A stretch of DNA of 64,000 bases from an uncultured Lachnospiraceae bacterium (GTDB lineage: Bacteria; Bacillota; Clostridia; Lachnospirales; Lachnospiraceae). This document shows, one piece after another, positions 46,531 through 58,081 of the stretch. Made by a program: the position numbers and the translations under genes. A model generated the notes under the pieces. That model was given only the letters and a program-made list of their open reading frames with translations. It was not told the origin of the DNA and did no database searches. The stretch is taken from contig CANPXP010000001.1 in the NCBI GenBank assembly GCA_947586255.1, positions 1-64,000 on the forward strand, in the 5' to 3' direction. Each line of letters opens with the position of its first letter. The stretch's first letter is position 1.

Positions 46531-47556
46531 TTATTCGTCATCCGGATCGGGGAAAATGCACTGGACGAACCGGTTCGCCAGAAGCTCGCGTCCCGCGTCG
46601 TTGAAATGGATGTAGTCTGTCATGTAGTTCAGATAATTGTCCTCATTGACGGAGCCGTAGAAATTGTCGATGAAGGAGACGCCGCAGTCCATCGTCGCAT
46701 CCAACTCCTTCTGCAGATAGTGGCTCAGCGTTCCGTGCCCCAGATCGATGCGGTCGCCGTTTTCAAAGACGCCCTCCTCATTGACATGGTGGCAGAACGT
46801 GTGGGACATCACGACGATGCGTATGTGCGGATAAGCGTCCTGGATCGCCTTGACGCCGGCGCGCAGGGCGCCTGTGTAGGTGATGACATCGTACGGTGCG
46901 TTGGGATCGTCGCAGGGGCGCATGTTGATGTAGTCGCTGGCGTCGTACATGACACAGAGATAGTCCACGCTGTTCATGTCGAGAGAGGCGAGCATCTCGG
47001 TCGTTTTAGGGACGGCTTCGTCGTAGCTGTAGGCGGCCGCGTCGCGCATGTCGTCGAAGTTGCCCGACGCAAGGCTTTGTGCCACGGAGGCGAAGGAAAA
47101 GGCGTCCAGATAATACCAGTTCTGATAGGTCGGATTCTTCATCGCTATCGTAGTGCCTGTGAACGAGCCGTTGTAGACAACGGCGCCTGTCTTTGCGGCG
47201 ATCTGCTCCGCCAGGCCGTTCTCGCCCTGGTTCAGGGAGAAGGGATCGTCCCCGAGGCACAGAATGGTGGTTACGCCGTCATCCACGTATCCCTCCCGCT
47301 TGTCGGGGGCGAGCGGAATGATACTGTCCATCACCTCGATGTCGAAAGCGGTTGTCTGTTCATTGGGATCGTAGTCGGACGGCACGCCCTTGTTCCATCT
47401 ATAGAGGCGGAAAGCGGAGAATGCCACAATCAGTACGATGGCGGCAATCAGAATGACATGAATATTTATGTGAAAGCGTCTGCCGGCTTCCGGCTGTTCA
47501 TCGATTTCCTGTTCGTTTATTTCCTGCTCATTTATTTCCTGTTGGTTTTCGCTCAT
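46531..47556 (-). CDS. Degenerate SGNH-like membrane protein
   Basis: A 341-residue protein with a short acidic cytoplasmic N terminus built from three five-residue repeats (QEINE type). One membrane helix follows (about residues 33-53), then an SGNH-fold domain. The expected nucleophile serine block reads CLGDDPFS, so the GDS serine is replaced by Asp. The later Asp-His block is intact (TDYIHFNDAG). It may be a non-catalytic glycan-binding paralogue or may use another residue. AAGGAGGT precedes the ATG. It converges on the SGNH gene at 45457. Confidence 0.72.
   Translation of the reverse strand: MSENQQEINEQEINEQEIDEQPEAGRRFHINIHVILIAAIVLIVAFSAFRLYRWNKGVPSDYDPNEQTTAFDIEVMDSIIPLAPDKREGYVDDGVTTILCLGDDPFSLNQGENGLAEQIAAKTGAVVYNGSFTGTTIAMKNPTYQNWYYLDAFSFASVAQSLASGNFDDMRDAAAYSYDEAVPKTTEMLASLDMNSVDYLCVMYDASDYINMRPCDDPNAPYDVITYTGALRAGVKAIQDAYPHIRIVVMSHTFCHHVNEEGVFENGDRIDLGHGTLSHYLQKELDATMDCGVSFIDNFYGSVNEDNYLNYMTDYIHFNDAGRELLANRFVQCIFPDPDDE
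47497..47541 (-). repeat. Three 15-bp in-frame tandem repeats
   Basis: Three near-identical 15-base units (consensus TTCATTTATTTCCTG on the plus strand) encode the repeated QEINE/QEIDE block at the N terminus of the 46531-47556 protein. Unit number could vary without changing the frame. Confidence 0.75.
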
Positions 47557-47721: not shown

Positions 47722-48057
47722 TCACACGTTGGTCAGATCGTGGGCACAGCGTTTTTCCATCGGGCTTCTGTCTGTCATGGAACAGGTGATGAGCGCGGTC
47801 TGCGGAAACTGCTTCTGAAGCTCCTTGTACCATTTGCTGTACTTGTACATTCGGTACGTGGTGCTCAGCTTCGGGAGCAGTGTCTCATCGTCGCAGCGCC
47901 TGGTGAATTCCTCCCGCTCCTCAAGATCCATGGCGACATAATCCATGTAAGTGATTTTGAGCTCCGTGATGCGCTCGCGGCACTTCGGACAATGCTGTTT
48001 ATGTCCGTTGAGCATGTAGACCCGATGGCAACGCTTACAATAGTGCATGTACATCAT
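47722..48057 (-). CDS. Zinc-ribbon protein of unknown function
   Basis: A 111-residue protein with an N-terminal four-cysteine zinc ribbon (YCKRCHRVYMLNGHKQHCPKC). A helical, tyrosine-rich segment (MYKYSKWYKELQKQF) and a short C-terminal strand region with two further cysteines follow. No signal or membrane segment is present. It is a separate transcription unit with its own promoter and terminator between two glycan regions. The fold suggests nucleic-acid or protein binding, but I do not recognise the family and no function is claimed. Confidence 0.7.
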   Translation of the reverse strand: MMYMHYCKRCHRVYMLNGHKQHCPKCRERITELKITYMDYVAMDLEEREEFTRRCDDETLLPKLSTTYRMYKYSKWYKELQKQFPQTALITCSMTDRSPMEKRCAHDLTNV

Positions 48058-48273: not shown

Positions 48274-48318
48274 ATTACAAAATTGTTCAAAAAATAGGGT
48301 TTACATAATGGAGGCGCA

Positions 48319-51300
48319 ATGCAAAACAAAAAGAGCGGCGGAAAGAAACATGCCAAACGGGAGATGGAACTGGAGGAGCTTCTGGCGGAGGATCGCTTCG
48401 ATGAGGAGGATGAGGACAGCGTGACGGATGATACGCTGGAATTTCTGAGCCTTGACGACGAGACGATTGCGTCCTATCAGAGTGAGCACGGGAGCGGACG
48501 CCGGGATTCCCGCAAGCGCGCTGCGCGGTACCGCGACGAAGAAGAGGATGACGAGGAGTACTACGGCGGCGCCGAAGATGATGAGGATGACGATGATGAG
48601 TACTACGCCGAAGATGACGAAGACGATGAAGAGGATGACGACGAGTACTACGGCGAAGACGATGATGAAGACGAGGACGATGAGGACGACGACGGGGAGT
48701 ACTACGGCGACGAAGATGATGACGAAGACGATGAAGAGGATGAGGATGACGAGTACTACGCTGAAGATGATGAAGACGAGGACGACGAATACTACGGCGA
48801 TGAGGACGACGAGTACGACGATGACGAGCGCGAGGGCGTGATCGCGCGCATCGGGTCCTGGCTGGCGGAGATGAGTACGCTCGACATGGTGGTTGCGATG
48901 TTCGGCGTCTTTGTAATTGCCGGAGTGATCGTGACGGGCACGCTGTTTGCCAACGCTAAGACGGTCGAGAAGCAGGTGGAGGCCTTTGCCACGGTCGGCG
49001 AGGAGATAGAAGGGATTTCCGTGATTGGGGAGGGCGGTCTCCTGGCGGTAGCCGAATCCGCCAGACTCTCGGATATGCTGGATGTGGAGGAAGAGGAACA
49101 GCAGGAGGAGGCTGAGGGAGAAGAGAAGGACGGCATTGAAGTAACTTTGAATCTCACCTCGATTCAGTCCGATCTGAAGATTAAATTCGTGAACAAATCG
49201 ACGGGAAAGCTGATTTCCGGCGTGCCCTTCGAGGTGGAGGTGACGGGCGGCGGCAAGTCTTATGAGTGGCAGGACGACGATAAGGACGGCATCATCTATA
49301 AGACGGAGATTGCGGCGGGCACATACAGTGTGAAGGCGAAGCCGCTGAGCGGCGGGGAATATGAGAAGTATAAGCTGCCGTCGGGCGCGGTCAGTGCGAA
49401 GGTTTCGGACAAGATCGCGTACAAGAAGGTGGATGTGGCAGACGAGATCAAAGACGAGTCGCAGATCAACGTGGCGGCTGAGGAGAAGGCCGGCGGCGAC
49501 ATCGCGGTGGAATCTCAGCTGACCGACACGGTGGAGTGGGTGGAGTCCACGAAGACGCCGATCGACTCGGAGGATAATTTCACCGAGATCAAGAAGGATG
49601 ACATTCCCGATCCGTCTAAGAGCGGCAAGGCGCTCAGCGGGTTTGTGAAGACGGCGGAGAAAAGCGGGAATTATGGATTCGCGCTGTTGAGCGAGACGGG
49701 ATTGGAGTGCACGTGCGGAACGAAGTGCAAAGCGGAAGAGCCCAATCAGGACTGCGCCGTATGCAAGACTGATCCGAGTCAGTGCAAGGGAGAGGAAAAG
49801 AAAAAAGAGTGTACCTGTAAGGATCGCAACAAGTGTACATCCAGTGACGACGCCAGAGACTGTCCGGTCTGTCAGGAGGATTATCACAACTGCGAGGGAA
49901 AAGAGGCGGAGCAGCCTAAGGAGTGCATCTGCACCACGCACTGTACGGACGAGGAGAGAAATACCGACTGCCCCGTCTGCAGCGAGAATCCGGGGAAGTG
50001 TAAGATCTCCGCGCCCGCGGGACCTACGGATGCGGAGAAACTGAGCGATATGCGTATCAGCAGCGACAGTCTGAGTCTGAAGGTAAACGATTCGGCGACG
50101 CTCACGGTCAGCGGACAGTACGAATCGGAGGCGTCCGTCGAATGGTCCGGCGCCAACTCGTCGGTGTCGGTGTCGGGGAGCGGCAGGAGCGTGACGGTCA
50201 AGGCGCTGGCGGCCGGGGATGCGACGATCACGGCGACTGTGTCTATAGGCGACAGTCAGTCCAAAAAAACGCTGTCCTGCAAAGTTACGGTGCAGAACAC
50301 GGAGCCGACCGAGCAGCAGAAAGCTGACTCCTTTGCGCTGAATAAGACCTCTCTCGGGCTGGTGCAGGGGGCTTCGGAGACGCTCTCCGTCAGCAGCTCT
50401 GGCAATTATAAGGCGTCCTCCGTGACGTGGAACAGTGACGATAAGAAGGTTGCCACCGTGGACGGCGGCAAGGTTACGGCCGTGGCGGCGGGCAAGACGA
50501 AGATCAAAGCCGAGGTCAAAGTGGGCGATGCGTCCAAAATACTTGAGTGCGATGTCAACGTCACGGCCAAGCACTATAAGATCGCCAGCATCGACGGCAG
50601 CGGCACCCTGACGGTCGGAGAGACGGGTAAAGTCACAGTGAAGCTGGAGCCCGCGGACGGACAGATCACGTGGAAGAGTGAGAATGAAAAGATCGTCAAG
50701 ATAGAGAGTACGGACGGCGACACCGCCAAATTCAAGGCGATAGCCGCGGGCAAGACAAAGATTACCGCAGTCTGCGGCGACGCCAAGGGAGAGTGGAGCG
50801 TAGAGGTCTCCAATGATCTCAAGGGCAACAAGACCAAGCTCAAGGATAAAAACGGCAATCAGGTCTATGTCAAAAAGGACGGTAAGTTTGTAGAGGCGAC
50901 ATATGAGGATTACAATACGGCGGACAAGTTCTATCTCGCTAAGTCCATGTACAGGTATACCGGCTGGCAGACGATAGACGGAAGCGTATATTTCTATGAC
51001 AAAGATGGCAATTACGTCACGGGCGAGCAGGTCATCCAGGGCGCGAAGTACAATTTCGGCAGCGACGGCCGGCTCTCCACCGGCTCCGGTTCCATGGGAA
51101 TCGATGTGTCCAAGCACAACGGAAGCATCGACTGGAGCGCCGTGAAGAATTCCGGCGTGTCCTACGCCATCATACGCTGCGGCTACAGAGGCTACTCGAC
51201 GGGCGTGCTGGTGGAGGATCCCAAGTTCATCAGCAATATCAAGGGCGCGAAGGCGGCCGGACTCAAGGTCGGCGTCTATATTTACAGCCAGGCGGTCAAT

Positions 51301-51684
51301 GAGGTGGAGGCGGTTGAGGAAGCGTCCATGGCGCTGAATCTGGTCAAAGGATACGGTCTGGATTATCCGATCTTTATCGATGTGGAGGCCAGCGGCGGCC
51401 GGGCGGACGGCATCGGCAGCAGCGCGAGGACGGCGGTGTGTCAGGCATTCTGCCAGACGGTGCAGAATTCCGGCTATTCGGCGGGCGTCTACTCCAACAA
51501 GAACTGGCTGTCCGAGCAGATCAATACGGGCAGTCTGACAGGTTATAAGATCTGGCTGGCGCAGTATGCGGCGGCGCCCACCTACACGGCGACCCGCTAT
51601 GATATGTGGCAGTATTCGTCCAAGGGTAAGGTCAGCGGCATCAGCGGCAATGTGGACATGAACATCAGCTACCTGAATTATTAG
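48319..51684 (+). CDS. Membrane-anchored GH25 lysozyme-like wall protein with acidic tail, Cys-rich repeats and Ig-like domains
   Basis: An 1121-residue multidomain protein. Residues 1-185 are hydrophilic, with a polyacidic stretch at about 70-170 punctuated by six EYY motifs. One membrane helix lies near 187-212. Outside come a CnaB-like beta domain (about 280-365), three Cys-rich repeats (about 463-562, CxC...DCxVC pattern) and three bacterial Ig-like (Big_2 type) domains (about 570-835). A wall-binding YTGWQTIDGSVYFYD repeat lies near 880-920, and a GH25 domain follows from 926 with GIDVSKHN and FIDVEA supplying the catalytic acids. The start has a GGAGG site. It could cut or bind peptidoglycan or attach glycan to the wall. 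It has a smaller paralogue at 53725. Confidence 0.85.
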   Translation: MQNKKSGGKKHAKREMELEELLAEDRFDEEDEDSVTDDTLEFLSLDDETIASYQSEHGSGRRDSRKRAARYRDEEEDDEEYYGGAEDDEDDDDEYYAEDDEDDEEDDDEYYGEDDDEDEDDEDDDGEYYGDEDDDEDDEEDEDDEYYAEDDEDEDDEYYGDEDDEYDDDEREGVIARIGSWLAEMSTLDMVVAMFGVFVIAGVIVTGTLFANAKTVEKQVEAFATVGEEIEGISVIGEGGLLAVAESARLSDMLDVEEEEQQEEAEGEEKDGIEVTLNLTSIQSDLKIKFVNKSTGKLISGVPFEVEVTGGGKSYEWQDDDKDGIIYKTEIAAGTYSVKAKPLSGGEYEKYKLPSGAVSAKVSDKIAYKKVDVADEIKDESQINVAAEEKAGGDIAVESQLTDTVEWVESTKTPIDSEDNFTEIKKDDIPDPSKSGKALSGFVKTAEKSGNYGFALLSETGLECTCGTKCKAEEPNQDCAVCKTDPSQCKGEEKKKECTCKDRNKCTSSDDARDCPVCQEDYHNCEGKEAEQPKECICTTHCTDEERNTDCPVCSENPGKCKISAPAGPTDAEKLSDMRISSDSLSLKVNDSATLTVSGQYESEASVEWSGANSSVSVSGSGRSVTVKALAAGDATITATVSIGDSQSKKTLSCKVTVQNTEPTEQQKADSFALNKTSLGLVQGASETLSVSSSGNYKASSVTWNSDDKKVATVDGGKVTAVAAGKTKIKAEVKVGDASKILECDVNVTAKHYKIASIDGSGTLTVGETGKVTVKLEPADGQITWKSENEKIVKIESTDGDTAKFKAIAAGKTKITAVCGDAKGEWSVEVSNDLKGNKTKLKDKNGNQVYVKKDGKFVEATYEDYNTADKFYLAKSMYRYTGWQTIDGSVYFYDKDGNYVTGEQVIQGAKYNFGSDGRLSTGSGSMGIDVSKHNGSIDWSAVKNSGVSYAIIRCGYRGYSTGVLVEDPKFISNIKGAKAAGLKVGVYIYSQAVNEVEAVEEASMALNLVKGYGLDYPIFIDVEASGGRADGIGSSARTAVCQAFCQTVQNSGYSAGVYSNKNWLSEQINTGSLTGYKIWLAQYAAAPTYTATRYDMWQYSSKGKVSGISGNVDMNISYLNY
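48535..48828 (+). repeat. Polyacidic coding repeat with EYY motifs
   Basis: Degenerate GAT/GAC/GAA/GAG runs interrupted by six copies of a GAGTACTACG-like block encode the Asp/Glu-rich tail with EYYG or EYYA motifs of the GH25 protein. Spacing between copies is irregular (about 40-60 bases). Confidence 0.8.
49705..50005 (+). repeat. Three Cys-rich protein repeats
   Basis: Three consecutive modules of about 33 residues share the pattern CxC-x3-C-x(7-8)-DCxVC-x(6)-C. The DNA copies have diverged, so this is an old protein-level duplication rather than a recent tandem repeat. Confidence 0.75.
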
Positions 51685-51750
51685 TCTTGCATTTTCAGGG
51701 CTGCTACCACATAATATACATGAGTGACATAAGGAGGGAGAACTGGGCGC

Positions 51751-52833
51751 ATGAGAACCTATCTGGTGACCGGCGGGGCCGGGTTTATCGGTTCCAACTA
51801 TATACATTATATGTTCCGCAAATATGACAGGGATATCCGCATCATCAACGTGGACGCGCTGACCTATGCGGGTAACCTGGAGAATCTGAAGGATGTTGAA
51901 GGGCGGGACAATTATACCTTTATCAAAGCGGATATCTGCGACAAGGAGGCAATCGCCGGAATTTTTGCGCAGAATGATATCGACAGGGTGGTGCACTTCG
52001 CGGCGGAGAGCCATGTGGACAGAAGCATCAAGGCGCCCGAGGTCTTTGTGCGGACCAATGTGCTGGGCACTGCGGTGATGCTCAACTGCGCCAAGGCGGC
52101 GTGGGAGTTGCCGGAGGGCGGTTTCAAGCCGGACAAGAAATTCCTGCACGTGTCCACGGATGAGGTGTACGGTTCTCTCGAGGAGGACGGTGGCTATTTC
52201 TACGAGACGACGCCCTACGCGCCCCACAGCCCGTACTCGGCCAGCAAGGCCGGATCGGACATGCTGGTGAAGGCATATATGGATACCTACAAATTTCCAG
52301 CCAACATCACCAACTGCTCCAACAATTACGGCCCCTATCAGTTCCCGGAGAAGCTGATTCCGCTGATCATCAACAACGCGCTGCAGGGAAAGAAGCTGCC
52401 TGTCTACGGGGACGGTAAGAACGTTCGGGACTGGCTGTACGTGGAGGATCACGCCAAGGCGATCGACATGGTGCAGGAGAAGGGACGCCTCTTCGAGACA
52501 TACAATATAGGCGGCCACAATGAGAAGCAGAATATCGAGATTATCCATATCATCCTCGACACGCTGCGGGAGATGCTGCCGGACAGCGATCCGCGAAGGG
52601 CGCTTGTGAGCGACGATCTGATCACCTATGTGGAGGACCGCAAAGGGCATGACAGGCGCTATGCCATCGCGCCGGACAAGATTAAGGCGGAGATCGGCTG
52701 GGAGCCCGAGACGATGTTTAAGGACGGCATACGCCGCACGATACAGTGGTTTTTCGAGCATGAGGATTGGATGCGGAACGTGACGAGCGGCGACTATCAG
52801 AAATATTACGAGGATATGTATCGCAACAGATAG
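51751..52833 (+). CDS. rmlB: dTDP-glucose 4,6-dehydratase
   Basis: A 360-residue extended short-chain dehydrogenase, the second step of dTDP-L-rhamnose synthesis. It has [30 protein letters not shown], the [11 protein letters not shown] active-site block with the catalytic Asp-Glu pair, and the YSASKAGSD YxxxK motif. The family C terminus GHDRRYAI is present. A GGAGGGAG sequence precedes the ATG. It lies 66 bases after the GH25 gene and 32 bases before rmlA. RmlC follows further on, but RmlD is not in the window. Confidence 0.96.
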
Positions 52834-52865
52834 AGAAGATTTGCGGAGACGGTACGGAGGAAACT

Positions 52866-53735
52866 ATGAAGGGTATTATTTTGGCAGGAGGCTCGGGCAC
52901 AAGGCTGTACCCGCTGACCAAGGCGATTTCCAAACAGATCATGCCGGTATATGACAAGCCGATGATCTACTATCCGCTGTCAACTCTTATGCTGGCGGGA
53001 ATACGGGATATCCTGATCATCTCCACACCCAGGGATCTGCCGGTGTTCGAGGAACTGTTCGGGGACGGAAGCCAGCTGGGGCTCCGCATGGAATACGCGG
53101 TGCAGGAGCAGCCGAGAGGACTGGCGGACGCCTTCATCATCGGGGCGGAATTTATCGGGGCGGACAATGTGGCCCTGGTGCTGGGGGACAATATCTTCTA
53201 TGGGCAGAGCTTTTCCAGAGTGCTGAGGGAAGTGGCGTCCAGACAGACGGGGGCGACGATCTTCGGCTACTATGTCAGAGACCCGCGGGAGTACGGCGTG
53301 GTAGAGTTTGACGAGGAGGGCAGGGCTCTATCCATCGAGGAAAAACCGGAGCACCCCAAGAGCAATTACGCGGTGCCGGGGCTGTATTTCTACGACAATC
53401 AGGTGGTGGAGATCGCGGCGGCTGTCAAGCCCTCCGCCAGAGGTGAGATTGAGATTACCAGCATCAATAACGAGTATCTGCGCAGGGGTGAGCTCTATGT
53501 GGAGACGCTGGGGAGAGGTTTTGCGTGGCTGGATACGGGAAATCACGATTCACTTCTGGACGCGGCGGATTTTGTGGCAGCTTTCCAGAAGAGACAGGGG
53601 TTGTATATCTCCTGCATAGAGGAGATTGCCTACAAGAGAGGATTCATCACCAGAGAACAGCTGCTGAAGCTGGCTGAGCCGCTGATGAAGACGGCGTACG
53701 GCCAATATATGGTTGAGGTTGCCAATGGACTCTAA
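52866..53735 (+). CDS. rmlA: Glucose-1-phosphate thymidylyltransferase
   Basis: A 289-residue nucleotidyltransferase that makes dTDP-glucose, the first step of rhamnose synthesis. The signature [22 protein letters not shown] is complete, followed by [42 protein letters not shown] and [12 protein letters not shown]. The tracked start at 52767 is inside rmlB; ATG 52866 has a strong GGAGG site. The 3' end overlaps the second GH25 gene by 11 bases, so the two are translationally linked. Confidence 0.96.
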
Positions 53736-55077
53736 GAAAATGCGAAGGACGCTGTATGCCATGATCGCCATGTTTGTGGTTCTGATCGGCGTGATAGCGT
53801 TCGCCAATCTGGATACCGTGCTGGGCAAGCTCGGACTGGCCGATGCAGAGCAGGCCGAAGAGACGGCGGCGACGGTGGAAGATGCGGGCGGTGGACAAAG
53901 AGGAGACGATTTGTCTGCCTTTCTGAATGACGAGACATTTTTTGATCCGGAAGTGAAGTTCAAGAGCATCGAGAGCTATTCGGGCAGAAGGGTGTCGCTC
54001 GTGATGAGCTCCGTGGCGAAGGATCTGCGCGTCATGGTTGTGGACAGCGTCGGCAGGCTGGTTGCGGGAACGCCGTTCAAGATTAACGTGCAGGGCATCG
54101 GGGAGTACACGGACTCCGACGAGGACGGCATTATCTATCTGGACGGGCTGCGCGCAGGGGAGTACAGCGTATCGCTGGAGGAAGCGGAGGGTTTTATCGT
54201 CCCCAATACGATCACGACCATTCAGGTCCGGCAGGAGATTGAGTACCGTGTCATAGACGATATTGAATATCTGATTCTGACGGAGGATGACGTCGATACG
54301 GACGAGGAGGACCGGGCCGTCAACGGCGCGGAGAAGGACGCGGACGGCACCGAGAATACGGATACGGAATTCGCGGCGGGGACGGGAAAACTCGGCATCG
54401 ACGTGTCCCGATGGAACCGGGAGATCGACTGGGAGGCAGTTAAAGAAGACGGTGTGGAATTTGCGATTATCCGCTGCGGGTACCGGGGCGCTTCGAGCGG
54501 AGCGCTGGTGCTGGATTCTATGTTTGAGCAGAATATAGAGGGCGCAATCGAGGCGGGGATTCCCGTGGGTGTCTACTTCTTTACACAGGCGACTAGCGAG
54601 GTGGAGGCCGTCGAGGAAGCCAGTATGGTGATCAGTCTCATAGAAGACTACGATGTGGATTATCCGGTATTTCTTGACAGCGAGAGCGCCGGCGGAGACG
54701 GGCGGGCGGACGACCTGGAGCCGGAGGAGAGAAGCGCTTATCACGAGGCGTTTCTGGAGACGATCGCCTCCGCGGGCTATGAGGCCGGGATCTACGCTTC
54801 CAGGAATTGGCTAGATGATCAGGTAGATATGACAATGTTGTCACAATACAAAACGTGGCTGGCGGAATATGCGGACGTTCCCACCTACGACGACTATTTT
54901 GATATGTGGCAGTACACTTCCAAGGGGACGGTGGAAGGCATCGAGACGAGGGTCGATCTGAACGTGTGCTATATGAATATCGATACGTCGATTAACCATG
55001 CCAGAGGCGCCGCGGGCTATTCCGGTATCATTGACGGGGACAGCGGCAACGTGCCGGTCGGTTCCGACGAAGAGTAG
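53725..55077 (+). CDS. Membrane-anchored GH25 lysozyme-like protein
   Basis: A 450-residue protein with one N-terminal membrane helix (about residues 9-28) and a CnaB-like beta domain (about 85-180, [22 protein letters not shown]). A GH25 domain follows from about 221, with GIDVSRWN and FLDSES carrying the catalytic acids. It shares both external domains with the 1121-residue protein at 48319 but lacks the acidic tail, Cys repeats and Ig domains. ATG 53725 lies inside the end of rmlA and is preceded by GAGGT. Its position between rmlA and rmlC is unusual and suggests a role linking the rhamnose glycan to the cell wall; that role is inferred. Confidence 0.87.
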
Positions 55078-55096
55078 AGAAAGGATTGCGAGGATT

Positions 55097-55660
55097 ATGG
55101 GCAAGATAACGGTAGAGACATGTGAGATAGAGGGCCTGAAGGTGATCACGCCGACCGTGTTCGGGGATGCGCGGGGTTACTTTATGGAGACCTACAATTA
55201 CAACGATTACAGAGAGGCGGGGATCGATCAGGAGTTCGTGCAGGACAATCAGTCCGCGTCGGTGAAAGGCGTGCTGCGCGGGCTGCATTTTCAGATCAAT
55301 TACCCGCAGGACAAGCTGGTGCGCGTTCTGAGCGGCGAGGTGTACGACGTGGCGGTGGATCTGCGTCCCGGTTCCGCGACCTACGGCAAATGGTTCGGCG
55401 TGCTGCTCTCGGCGGAGAACAAGAAACAGTTTTTTGTGCCGAAAAATTTTGCGCACGGCTTCTATGTGCTGTCGGATCATGCGGAGTTTGCGTATAAATG
55501 TACGGATTTCTATCATCCGAACGACGAGGGCGGCATCATCTGGAATGATCCGGCGATCGGCGTCGAGTGGCCGATTCCTGCCGGGACACAGCCGATTCTG
55601 TCCGACAAGGATACGCGCCATGGAGGTCTTGACGCGTTTACGCGGCAGTATCGCAGCTGA
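55097..55660 (+). CDS. rmlC: dTDP-4-dehydrorhamnose 3,5-epimerase
   Basis: A 187-residue cupin epimerase, the third step of dTDP-L-rhamnose synthesis. It has DARGYFMETYN, FVQDNQSASVKGVLRGLHFQ with the catalytic histidine, VYDVAVDLR, and FVPKNFAHGFYVLSD. The last part contains the tyrosine of YKCTDFY. ATG 55097 is the family start; the tracked start is 33 codons upstream inside the GH25 gene. It is followed by the polysaccharide ABC exporter. RmlD is expected downstream or elsewhere on the genome. Confidence 0.95.
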   Translation: MGKITVETCEIEGLKVITPTVFGDARGYFMETYNYNDYREAGIDQEFVQDNQSASVKGVLRGLHFQINYPQDKLVRVLSGEVYDVAVDLRPGSATYGKWFGVLLSAENKKQFFVPKNFAHGFYVLSDHAEFAYKCTDFYHPNDEGGIIWNDPAIGVEWPIPAGTQPILSDKDTRHGGLDAFTRQYRS

Positions 55661-55703
55661 CGGGTCCTGACAGAAGCGTTTGGGACGGGAAAATAAGGGT
55701 GTT

Positions 55704-56729
55704 ATGACGGAGAGTACGCAGCGTGACGAAAAGAGAATAAGGCATTTTGCAAAGCCCGCGGGAATAGCCGTTTTCTGGGGGCTTGGTCTGATTCTGGCGC
55801 TGGTGTTGGTGAGACACCACAATCCGTTGGCGGATCAGGTGACGGAGCGGATGAAGAAGGTGAGCGGCTGCGTGCTCATCGCGTTTACCTGCATCATCTA
55901 TTCTCTGTATTATGAAAGGATCATGACGATTCCGGCGGAACTGTTCCAGAGCAGAAAGCTGATCTGGAAGCTGGCGAAAAATGATTTCAAGAAGCGTTAC
56001 GCCGGTTCTTATCTCGGCATCGTGTGGGCGATGGCGCAGCCGGTGGTGACCGTCGTGATGTACTGGATTGTCTTCGACAAGGTTTTTGACACGCGCAGCC
56101 AGCTGGTGGCCAGCGGTCTCGAAGTGCCCTATGTGCTCTATCTGACGGCGGGGCTTGTCCCGTGGTTCTACTTCTCTGAGGCGATCACGCAGGGCACGAT
56201 GGCGCTGATTGAATATAATTACCTGGTCAAAAAAGTGGTGTTCAATATCAGTATTCTTCCCATCATCAAAGTGATTGCCGCCACCTTTATCCATGTATTC
56301 TTCGTGGGAGTACTGCTGTTGGTGGCCGCCGGATACGGCTATTATCCGAATGTCTACACGCTGCAGCTTGTCTATTACAGCCTCTGTCTGTTCCTGCTTG
56401 TGCTCGGCATGAGTTATCTCACCTGCGCGCTGGTCGTGTTTATCAGGGACTTGCAGCAGATTATCAGCATCGCCCTGCAGATCGGCATGTGGGCGACGCC
56501 TATTTTGTGGAATATCGAGATGCTGACCTATGACAATACCAAAACGCTGTTCAAGCTGAATCCGCTGGTGTATATCGTCAACGGTTACAGAAGCGCGATC
56601 TATGAGAAAGTATGGTTTTGGGAGCATTTCTACTCCTCCACATATTTCTGGATCTTTACAATCAGCCTGTTCTGCATCGGCACGCTGATTTTCAGGAGGC
56701 TACGGGTACACTTTGCGGATGTGCTATGA
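55704..56729 (+). CDS. Polysaccharide ABC exporter permease (Wzm/TagG-like)
   Basis: A 341-residue permease of the ABC-2 polysaccharide export type. The core begins at LIWKLAKNDFKKRYAGSYLGIVWAMAQP and has six helices, with FSEAITQGTMALIEYNYLVKKVVF in the middle as in TagG/Wzm. About 80 extra N-terminal residues add two helices that typical permeases of about 270 residues lack. ATG 55704 follows AAGGG. It overlaps or abuts the Wzt gene (ATGA at 56726). It should export a completed glycan, probably rhamnose-containing, across the membrane. Confidence 0.92.
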   Translation: MTESTQRDEKRIRHFAKPAGIAVFWGLGLILALVLVRHHNPLADQVTERMKKVSGCVLIAFTCIIYSLYYERIMTIPAELFQSRKLIWKLAKNDFKKRYAGSYLGIVWAMAQPVVTVVMYWIVFDKVFDTRSQLVASGLEVPYVLYLTAGLVPWFYFSEAITQGTMALIEYNYLVKKVVFNISILPIIKVIAATFIHVFFVGVLLLVAAGYGYYPNVYTLQLVYYSLCLFLLVLGMSYLTCALVVFIRDLQQIISIALQIGMWATPILWNIEMLTYDNTKTLFKLNPLVYIVNGYRSAIYEKVWFWEHFYSSTYFWIFTISLFCIGTLIFRRLRVHFADVL

Positions 56730-56758
56730 GCCGCAAGCAATTCAATCAGGGTAATATT

Positions 56759-58081
56759 ATGGACAATATCGCGATTCAGGTCACAAATGTAGAAAAAGTA
56801 TATAAGCTGTACGACAAGCCTTCCGACCGGATTGTGGAGGCGCTCGGGTTTGGGCGCGGCAAGCGCCATAAGGAGCATCATGCGCTGAAGGGCGTCAATC
56901 TGACGGTTCGTCAGGGAGAGTGCGTGGGTATCATCGGGACCAACGGCTCCGGCAAATCCACGATCCTGAAGATCATTACCGGCGTCGTCAACCCGACGCG
57001 CGGGGAAGTGACTGTCAACGGGCGCATCTCCGCGCTGCTTGAGTTGGGCGCCGGATTCAATATGGAGTATAATGGCATTGAGAATATCTATCTGAACGGC
57101 ACGATGATCGGCTTCAGCGAGAAGGAGATCGACGAGAAGTTGGACGCGATACTGGAATTCGCGGATATCGGCGCGTACGTGCACCAGCCGGTCAAAACGT
57201 ATTCCAGCGGTATGTTTGTGCGTCTTGCCTTCGCGGTGGCGATCAATATCGAGCCGGAGATTCTGATTGTGGACGAGGCGCTCTCGGTGGGGGACGTCTT
57301 CTTCCAGGCGAAATGCTATCACAAGTTTGAAGAGTTCAAGGAGATGGGCAAAACCATCGTGTTCGTCAGCCACGATCTGAGCAGCATCAGCAAGTACTGC
57401 GACAGGGTAGTGCTGCTCAATCAGGGTGTCAAGCTGGGCGAGGGCGCGCCGAAAAAGATGATCGACATCTACAAACAGGTTCTGGTGGGGCAGTATGCTG
57501 TGCCGGAAGAGGGGGAAAGCCTGCTGGACGACGAGGAGCTGCGCAGGGCGGCGGCCGGAGGGCGCATCACCGCCGCGGAAGGCGCGCCGGAGCGGTCGGC
57601 GGAGAACGGGGAAAAGGTCGGCGCGGCTTCGGAGAATCCGGAACTTCTGGAGTATGGTTCTAAGAAGGCAGTCATTACGGAATACTATATTACGGACGAC
57701 AAGGGGGCGAGGACTTCCGCAATTCTGAAGGGGAATTCTTTTGCCATTCACATGAACGTCCGTATGCAGGAGGATATTCAGGCGCCTATTTTTGCCTTCA
57801 CGATCAAGAATGTGCGCGGAACGGAGATCACGGGAACGAATACAATGTTTGAGAAGGCATTCCTGGAACCCGTGAAGGCCGGTGAAGAGCGGCATGTGAC
57901 TTTCACGCAGAAGATGAGCCTGCAGGGCGGGGACTATCTGCTGTCCCTGGGTGTCACCGGCTATGAGAACGATGATTTTACCGTCTATCACAGGCTGTAT
58001 GACGCGCTGAGCCTGACGGTCATATCCGACAAGGACACGGTGGGATTCTACGATATGGATTCCGCGGTGGAGGTGCGCTGA
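56759..58081 (+). CDS. Polysaccharide ABC exporter ATPase with C-terminal glycan-binding domain (Wzt/TagH-like)
   Basis: A 440-residue ATPase. Walker A is GTNGSGKST, the signature YSSGMFVRLAF and Walker B LIVDEALSVGD. After a linker of about 60 residues there is a Wzt_C-type beta-sandwich (about 305-430, FAIHMNVRMQEDIQAPIFAFTIKN). In O9a-type systems this binds the modified non-reducing end of the chain before export. ATG 56759 follows AGGGT; an alternative ATG at 56726 overlaps the permease stop. The next gene encodes a methyltransferase-kinase protein that could make such a terminal mark. Confidence 0.92.
   Translation: MDNIAIQVTNVEKVYKLYDKPSDRIVEALGFGRGKRHKEHHALKGVNLTVRQGECVGIIGTNGSGKSTILKIITGVVNPTRGEVTVNGRISALLELGAGFNMEYNGIENIYLNGTMIGFSEKEIDEKLDAILEFADIGAYVHQPVKTYSSGMFVRLAFAVAINIEPEILIVDEALSVGDVFFQAKCYHKFEEFKEMGKTIVFVSHDLSSISKYCDRVVLLNQGVKLGEGAPKKMIDIYKQVLVGQYAVPEEGESLLDDEELRRAAAGGRITAAEGAPERSAENGEKVGAASENPELLEYGSKKAVITEYYITDDKGARTSAILKGNSFAIHMNVRMQEDIQAPIFAFTIKNVRGTEITGTNTMFEKAFLEPVKAGEERHVTFTQKMSLQGGDYLLSLGVTGYENDDFTVYHRLYDALSLTVISDKDTVGFYDMDSAVEVR

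Follow-up and report, generated by a model that had tools for sequence, protein, structure and literature searches.

A 1121-residue protein encoded in the window (the whole stretch of 64,000 nucleotides analysed here, from an uncultured Lachnospiraceae bacterium) joins an acidic, tyrosine-rich N-terminal tail, a single transmembrane helix, Ig-like domains and a GH25 domain, and its gene opens a conserved polysaccharide locus (Table 1). We suggest that it is a type II membrane-anchored GH25 muramidase that serves a secondary wall polysaccharide containing rhamnose, its tail acting as a cytoplasmic docking strip, a reading to which we give an even chance of being right. The architecture, the catalytic residues, the locus and the recurring composition and motif of the tail are observed, and from them we infer the docking role. 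No description of the protein or of its tail was found in the papers searched.

Table 1. Features of the tailed GH25 gene and its surroundings, in positions of the window, or of L169 for the LCP gene (aa, residues of the 1121-aa protein). Counts out of 70 refer to orthologue loci, and many of them are reduced by contig ends.
Feature	Coordinates	Strand	Basis or occurrence
Whole gene, 1121 aa: tail, TM, Ig-like domain, Cys modules, Big_2 repeats, GH25	48319..51684	+	
Predicted cytoplasmic N-terminal tail, aa 1-185	48319..48873	+	Composition; precedes sole TM helix
Conserved short motif VTDDTLEFLSLDDETIASY, aa 35-53	48421..48477	+	Genus-wide pattern; related forms in other genera
Acidic repeats with six EYYG/EYYA, aa 73-170	48535..48828	+	Repeat composition
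Single transmembrane helix, aa 191-209	48889..48945	+	Hydropathy; helix also in AlphaFold2 model
Ig/FN3-like or prealbumin-like beta domain, about aa 273-362	49135..49404	+	Alignment, AlphaFold2, Foldseek, Pfam
Cys module 1, aa 464-489	49708..49785	+	PF14283 stretch, E 1.5e-4 alone
Cys module 2, aa 498-525	49810..49893	+	PF14283 stretch, E 0.02 alone
Cys module 3, aa 536-561	49924..50001	+	PF14283 stretch, E 6.8e-4 alone
aBig_2 and Big_2 Ig-like repeats, about aa 580-835	50056..50823	+	Pfam
Choline/glucan-binding-like repeat, aa 881-916	50959..51066	+	Pfam, slightly under cut-off
GH25 domain, aa 928-1108	51100..51642	+	Pfam; likely catalytic D929, D1021, E1023
SGNH-type membrane protein, short acidic repeat tail (EINEQEINEQEIDEQPE)	46531-47556	-	Neighbour in 52/70 loci
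Small divergent gene, CxxC...CxxC zinc-ribbon-like start (MMYMHYCKRCHRVYMLNGHKQHCPKC)	47722-48057	-	Upstream in 37/70 loci
rfbB-like dTDP-glucose 4,6-dehydratase	51751..52833	+	Pfam; cluster in 61/70 loci
rfbA-like nucleotidyltransferase	52767..53735	+	Named by sequence; cluster in 63/70 loci
Second GH25 protein, short-tailed paralogue (TM, prealbumin-like, GH25)	53713..55077	+	Pfam; cluster in 47/70 loci
rfbC-like epimerase	54998..55660	+	Named by sequence; cluster in 49/70 loci
ABC-2 permease (Wzm-like)	55680..56729	+	Cluster in 58/70 loci
ABC ATPase with Wzt_C domain	56612..58081	+	Cluster in 45/70 loci
LCP glycopolymer ligase, KKSSGKKSSGKK cytoplasmic tail, start MARYVEDEYEEERPRKK	L169:1102-2298		About 20 kb downstream on the window's contig

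The coordinates and frame of the open reading frame agree exactly with the sequence, and a GGAGG lies directly 5' of its ATG start codon. Pfam returned GH25, aBig_2, three stretches of Big_2 and, weakly, a choline-binding repeat, which together with the reading frame and hydropathy confirmed the layout put forward in the original prediction: acidic EYY tail, one membrane helix, Cys modules, Ig-like domains and GH25. The GH25 domain, likewise foreseen there, scores 121.8 bits against a cut-off of 27 (E 5.4e-35), its likely catalytic residues are intact and invariant among 13 orthologues, and it aligns with solved muramidases, most closely with 2ww5, a 1,4-beta-N-acetylmuramidase whose catalytic motif lines up with its DVE. 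Judged from these matches, a role as a wall enzyme is well supported, and muramidase activity would be its likely form. Since GH25 acts on the wall and so must be outside, topology would place the tail inside the cell. The protein shares its catalytic domain and DxE motif with GH25 muramidases such as 2ww5 and the Cellosyl-type 1jfx, but differs from them in its N-terminal helix anchor, long acidic cytoplasmic tail, Ig-like spacers and location in a polysaccharide locus. An antisense reading frame of 1486 aa (48301-52761, minus strand) overlaps the gene; it is probably not a gene itself but an effect of codon bias and the acidic repeats.

Between the membrane and the enzyme, an AlphaFold2 model of the helix and membrane-proximal region shows a confident beta sandwich (pLDDT 87-94), whose fold resembles FN3/Ig domains according to Foldseek; Pfam added a weak SpaA/prealbumin match, and a profile of the TM/Ig region found no significant match among PDB sequences. 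Beyond it lie three six-Cys modules, starting at aa 464, 498 and 536. Their AlphaFold2 model, with a mean pLDDT of 55.6, was too low in confidence for use. These modules, at first thought unfamiliar, proved in a profile search each to match the Cys-rich stretch of the CD1107-like family PF14283, the three together scoring 32.8 bits and the whole protein 25.1 bits against a cut-off of 26, with matches spanning only profile positions about 71-108 of 158. The rest of that family is unmatched, and here the stretch does the work of a spacer within a wall protein. Because most orthologues are without the modules, which are limited to the species of the window and a small number of relatives, they read as lineage-specific inserts within a variable spacer. 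A stronger PF14283 match (L218, 79.8 bits) occurs elsewhere in the genome of a genus member, G006.

Orthologues are widespread within the family. All 36 same-genus genomes searched hold a full or near-full match, and a scan of genome contigs found relatives in Lachnospiraceae, Butyrivibrio and Parablautia records; a Butyrivibrio strain kept in laboratories also has an orthologue. In an even sample of the family, the TM/Ig profile matched 51 of 299 genomes, some of these matches being the short paralogue only; of about 300 Lachnospiraceae genera sampled, several dozen have the protein. Strong matches in a class-wide sample all fell within Lachnospiraceae, to which the protein family is essentially confined.

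The locus opened by the tailed gene continues with rfbB, rfbA, a second GH25 gene, rfbC and a Wzm/Wzt exporter. The second GH25 protein, conserved beside rfbA/rfbC across genera, has almost no cytoplasmic tail, and its GH25 domain is 52% identical to that of the tailed protein. On the other side, the SGNH-type neighbour also carries a variable tail, acidic in several species, and the small gene with the zinc-ribbon-like start had no match in Pfam. LCP genes occurred in 38 of 38 genomes examined, in about 30 of them on the same contig as the GH25 gene and some 15-40 kb away; on the window's contig the LCP gene adjoins a bacterial sugar transferase, recognised by sequence. Thus dTDP-rhamnose genes (rfbA and rfbC named by sequence), an ABC exporter and an LCP ligase occur together, and by its gene content the locus is built like one for a rhamnose-type wall polysaccharide that an ABC transporter exports and an LCP ligase attaches, the sugar being probably rhamnose. 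The same three elements characterize RhaCWP loci, with RgpC/D-type two-component ABC export and LCP ligation (PMC4931226); the Wzt here differs in having a Wzt_C domain, and the locus in holding two GH25 proteins. Synteny with these genes across genera strengthens the proposed transmembrane link between polysaccharide and wall, although the idea of a tyrosine-kinase substrate put forward beside it is not supported, as discussed below.

The tail is the most unusual part of the protein. Its 185 residues contain 98 D/E, 15 Y and six EYY[GA] units, and its net charge is -82, reaching about -124 in relatives. Across 66 untruncated orthologues of the first set, median tail composition was 46% D/E and 10% Y, compared with 14% and 4.3% in the outside parts; because of this difference the high D+E content is not a matter of chance composition. 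Tyrosine is the preferred aromatic (median 10% versus 2.8% F). The repeat units vary by lineage (YEDED, EEDEYYG, EGEYYADGEEGY, DRYEDDEYPEDD), so it is the composition of the tail that recurs and not its wording. At the DNA level, the EYY pattern of the repeats is unique to this site in the genome, and all 14 Tyr codons between aa 70 and 170 are TAC, as against 15 of 37 elsewhere, beside mixed D and E codons, which suggests that the EYY unit was recently duplicated. An acidic-tyrosine tail is present in nearly all family members, the exceptions being basic tails with no or almost no Y (L068, L145, L153, L160), and in G004 and G019 F substitutes for most Y. Two apparently tail-less orthologues (L146, L157) and two short-tailed ones (L120, L121) could be traced to masked bases or non-ATG starts; runs of N within the acidic repeats of several orthologues (L120, L146, L086) make tail lengths unreliable there.

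Near its N-terminus the tail carries a short motif, with the genus consensus VTxDTLEFLxLDDxxIxxY and the form DTLEFLSLDD in the window's protein. Of 41 genus genomes, 28 contain the DNA pattern of its core, none of them more than once, and the site is nearly always the tailed GH25 gene; in G001, G013 and G062 the match lies on a contig other than the known piece of the gene, or is uninspected. That the DTLEFLxLDD box might be common to other proteins was rejected on this count, which holds for the exact pattern only. Related motifs lie near the N-terminus in other genera (ELEWMDFDDE, DDFVDYDERY, FELIDLDQTAEW), and one falls within the first 60 residues in 21 of 55 tails, as against 5.1 in shuffles (maximum 11 in 500 shuffles). 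Since the shuffles disregard kinship among the tails, this enrichment may be taken as support and not as proof.

We propose the following mechanism. The polymer would be exported by Wzm/Wzt and probably attached by the LCP ligase, while the Ig-like domain and the variable spacer modules would hold GH25 away from the membrane, so placed that it might cut or bind glycan strands at the polymer's exit point. The tail would be disordered and highly negative, with aromatics at regular intervals, to which many members add the N-terminal hydrophobic-acidic motif, and it would most likely position the enzyme through a putative cytoplasmic partner, either the exporter/glycosyltransferase complex or the division machinery. 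Such docking is supported by the persistence of an acidic-aromatic tail in most members despite unlike repeat units, and by the motif enrichment. It fits less well with the basic, Y-poor tails of a few orthologues and with many Butyrivibrio tails, from which the motif is absent, and the fast-changing repeats could also signal weak constraint.

Weak constraint is the core of the main competing view, in which the tail would be an acidic spacer, neutral or under little constraint, that lengthened by repeat slippage and has no specific partner. Units unlike between species, uniform TAC codons that fit recent duplication and unrelated basic tails in a few orthologues all speak for it; however, many genera reach the same composition with unlike units and the N-terminal motif exceeds its shuffles, and we consider the view rather unlikely. 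A net charge of this size would also suit a role in buffering cations or metals, or as a general polyanion platform on the cytoplasmic side of the membrane, but the regular aromatic spacing and the motif would then be left unexplained, and the conserved neighbours include no metal transporter, which makes this improbable. Charge attraction might instead pair the tail with that of the LCP ligase encoded in the locus, which is cytoplasmic and rich in lysine, given that LCP tails are basic (median +13) and GH25 tails acidic (median -53). Yet their charges do not covary significantly (Spearman -0.32, p 0.10), the LCP tail is still basic in genomes whose GH25 tail is itself basic (G136, G259) or close to neutral (G357, G162), and basic LCP tails are general across the family's loci and match the general positive-inside rule; we therefore regard such pairing as quite improbable.

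The original prediction likened the tyrosine clusters to capsule tyrosine kinase substrates, and dense tyrosines in an acidic setting, on a protein encoded in a polysaccharide locus, do look the part of a substrate or docking site through which a CpsD/Wzc-type kinase would couple capsule synthesis to the wall. The kinase itself argues against this. In a search covering TIGR01007 (CpsD/Wzc-type) and Wzz, 17 of the 41 genus genomes had a kinase above the cut-off, and its partner Wzz occurred in those same 17; the window's genome (G000, 84.84% complete) gave a best TIGR01007 score of 57.2 bits against a cut-off of 108.05, and no Wzz/CpsC. Both were also absent from the closest relative, G005 (99% complete), from G013 (100%) and from G018, G032 and G036 (98% each), and near-complete relatives without the kinase keep the tail. 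Tyrosine number is independent of the kinase, and the counts do not differ between genomes with and without it (medians of the two groups 12 and 13.5, p = 0.91; 32 tails, of which two, one per group, are start-codon or masking artefacts). With most Y replaced by F in two orthologues and an exporter of the Wzm/Wzt type, this reading did not survive, and we hold it to be highly improbable. Phosphorylation of the tail as a signalling strip by some other, unrecognised kinase would accord with the preference for Y over F, but orthologues with F for Y, others with acidic tails nearly free of Y, and a locus without a kinase candidate make it improbable as well.

A precedent for docking by way of such a tail is streptococcal MapZ, a single-pass N-in protein whose disordered cytoplasmic tail binds FtsZ via an unfolded, conserved N-terminal stretch and whose ectodomain contacts the wall (PMC7055233). 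In hydropathy and domain order the protein described here has the same plan of a single membrane helix, a C-terminal ectodomain and a tail predicted to be cytoplasmic and disordered, with a short conserved stretch near its N-terminus. MapZ, however, is a beacon with an ectodomain other than GH25, in contrast to the Ig-like, Big_2 and GH25 domains found here, and no MapZ family was among the protein's Pfam matches. We would thus describe the tailed GH25 protein as a bridge that may be MapZ-like in its working, rather than as a member of the MapZ family.

How polysaccharide export is coordinated in space with the opening of peptidoglycan is unclear even in streptococci, where the wall hydrolases PcsB and AtlA, as well as MapZ, are misplaced once the rhamnose polysaccharide or its decoration is lost (PMC4931226, PMC11754754) and hydrolase mislocalisation is the phenotype observed. 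Here a single conserved protein would reach both sides of the membrane and opens the polysaccharide locus, which makes a link between export and wall testable via its tail. We tentatively speculate, regarding it as possible rather than probable, that fast-evolving acidic-aromatic disordered tails with a short linear motif may serve Lachnospiraceae as scaffolds across the membrane, assembling the machinery for wall-polysaccharide export and setting wall-cutting enzymes over it, a MapZ-like logic that would have evolved separately on a muramidase.
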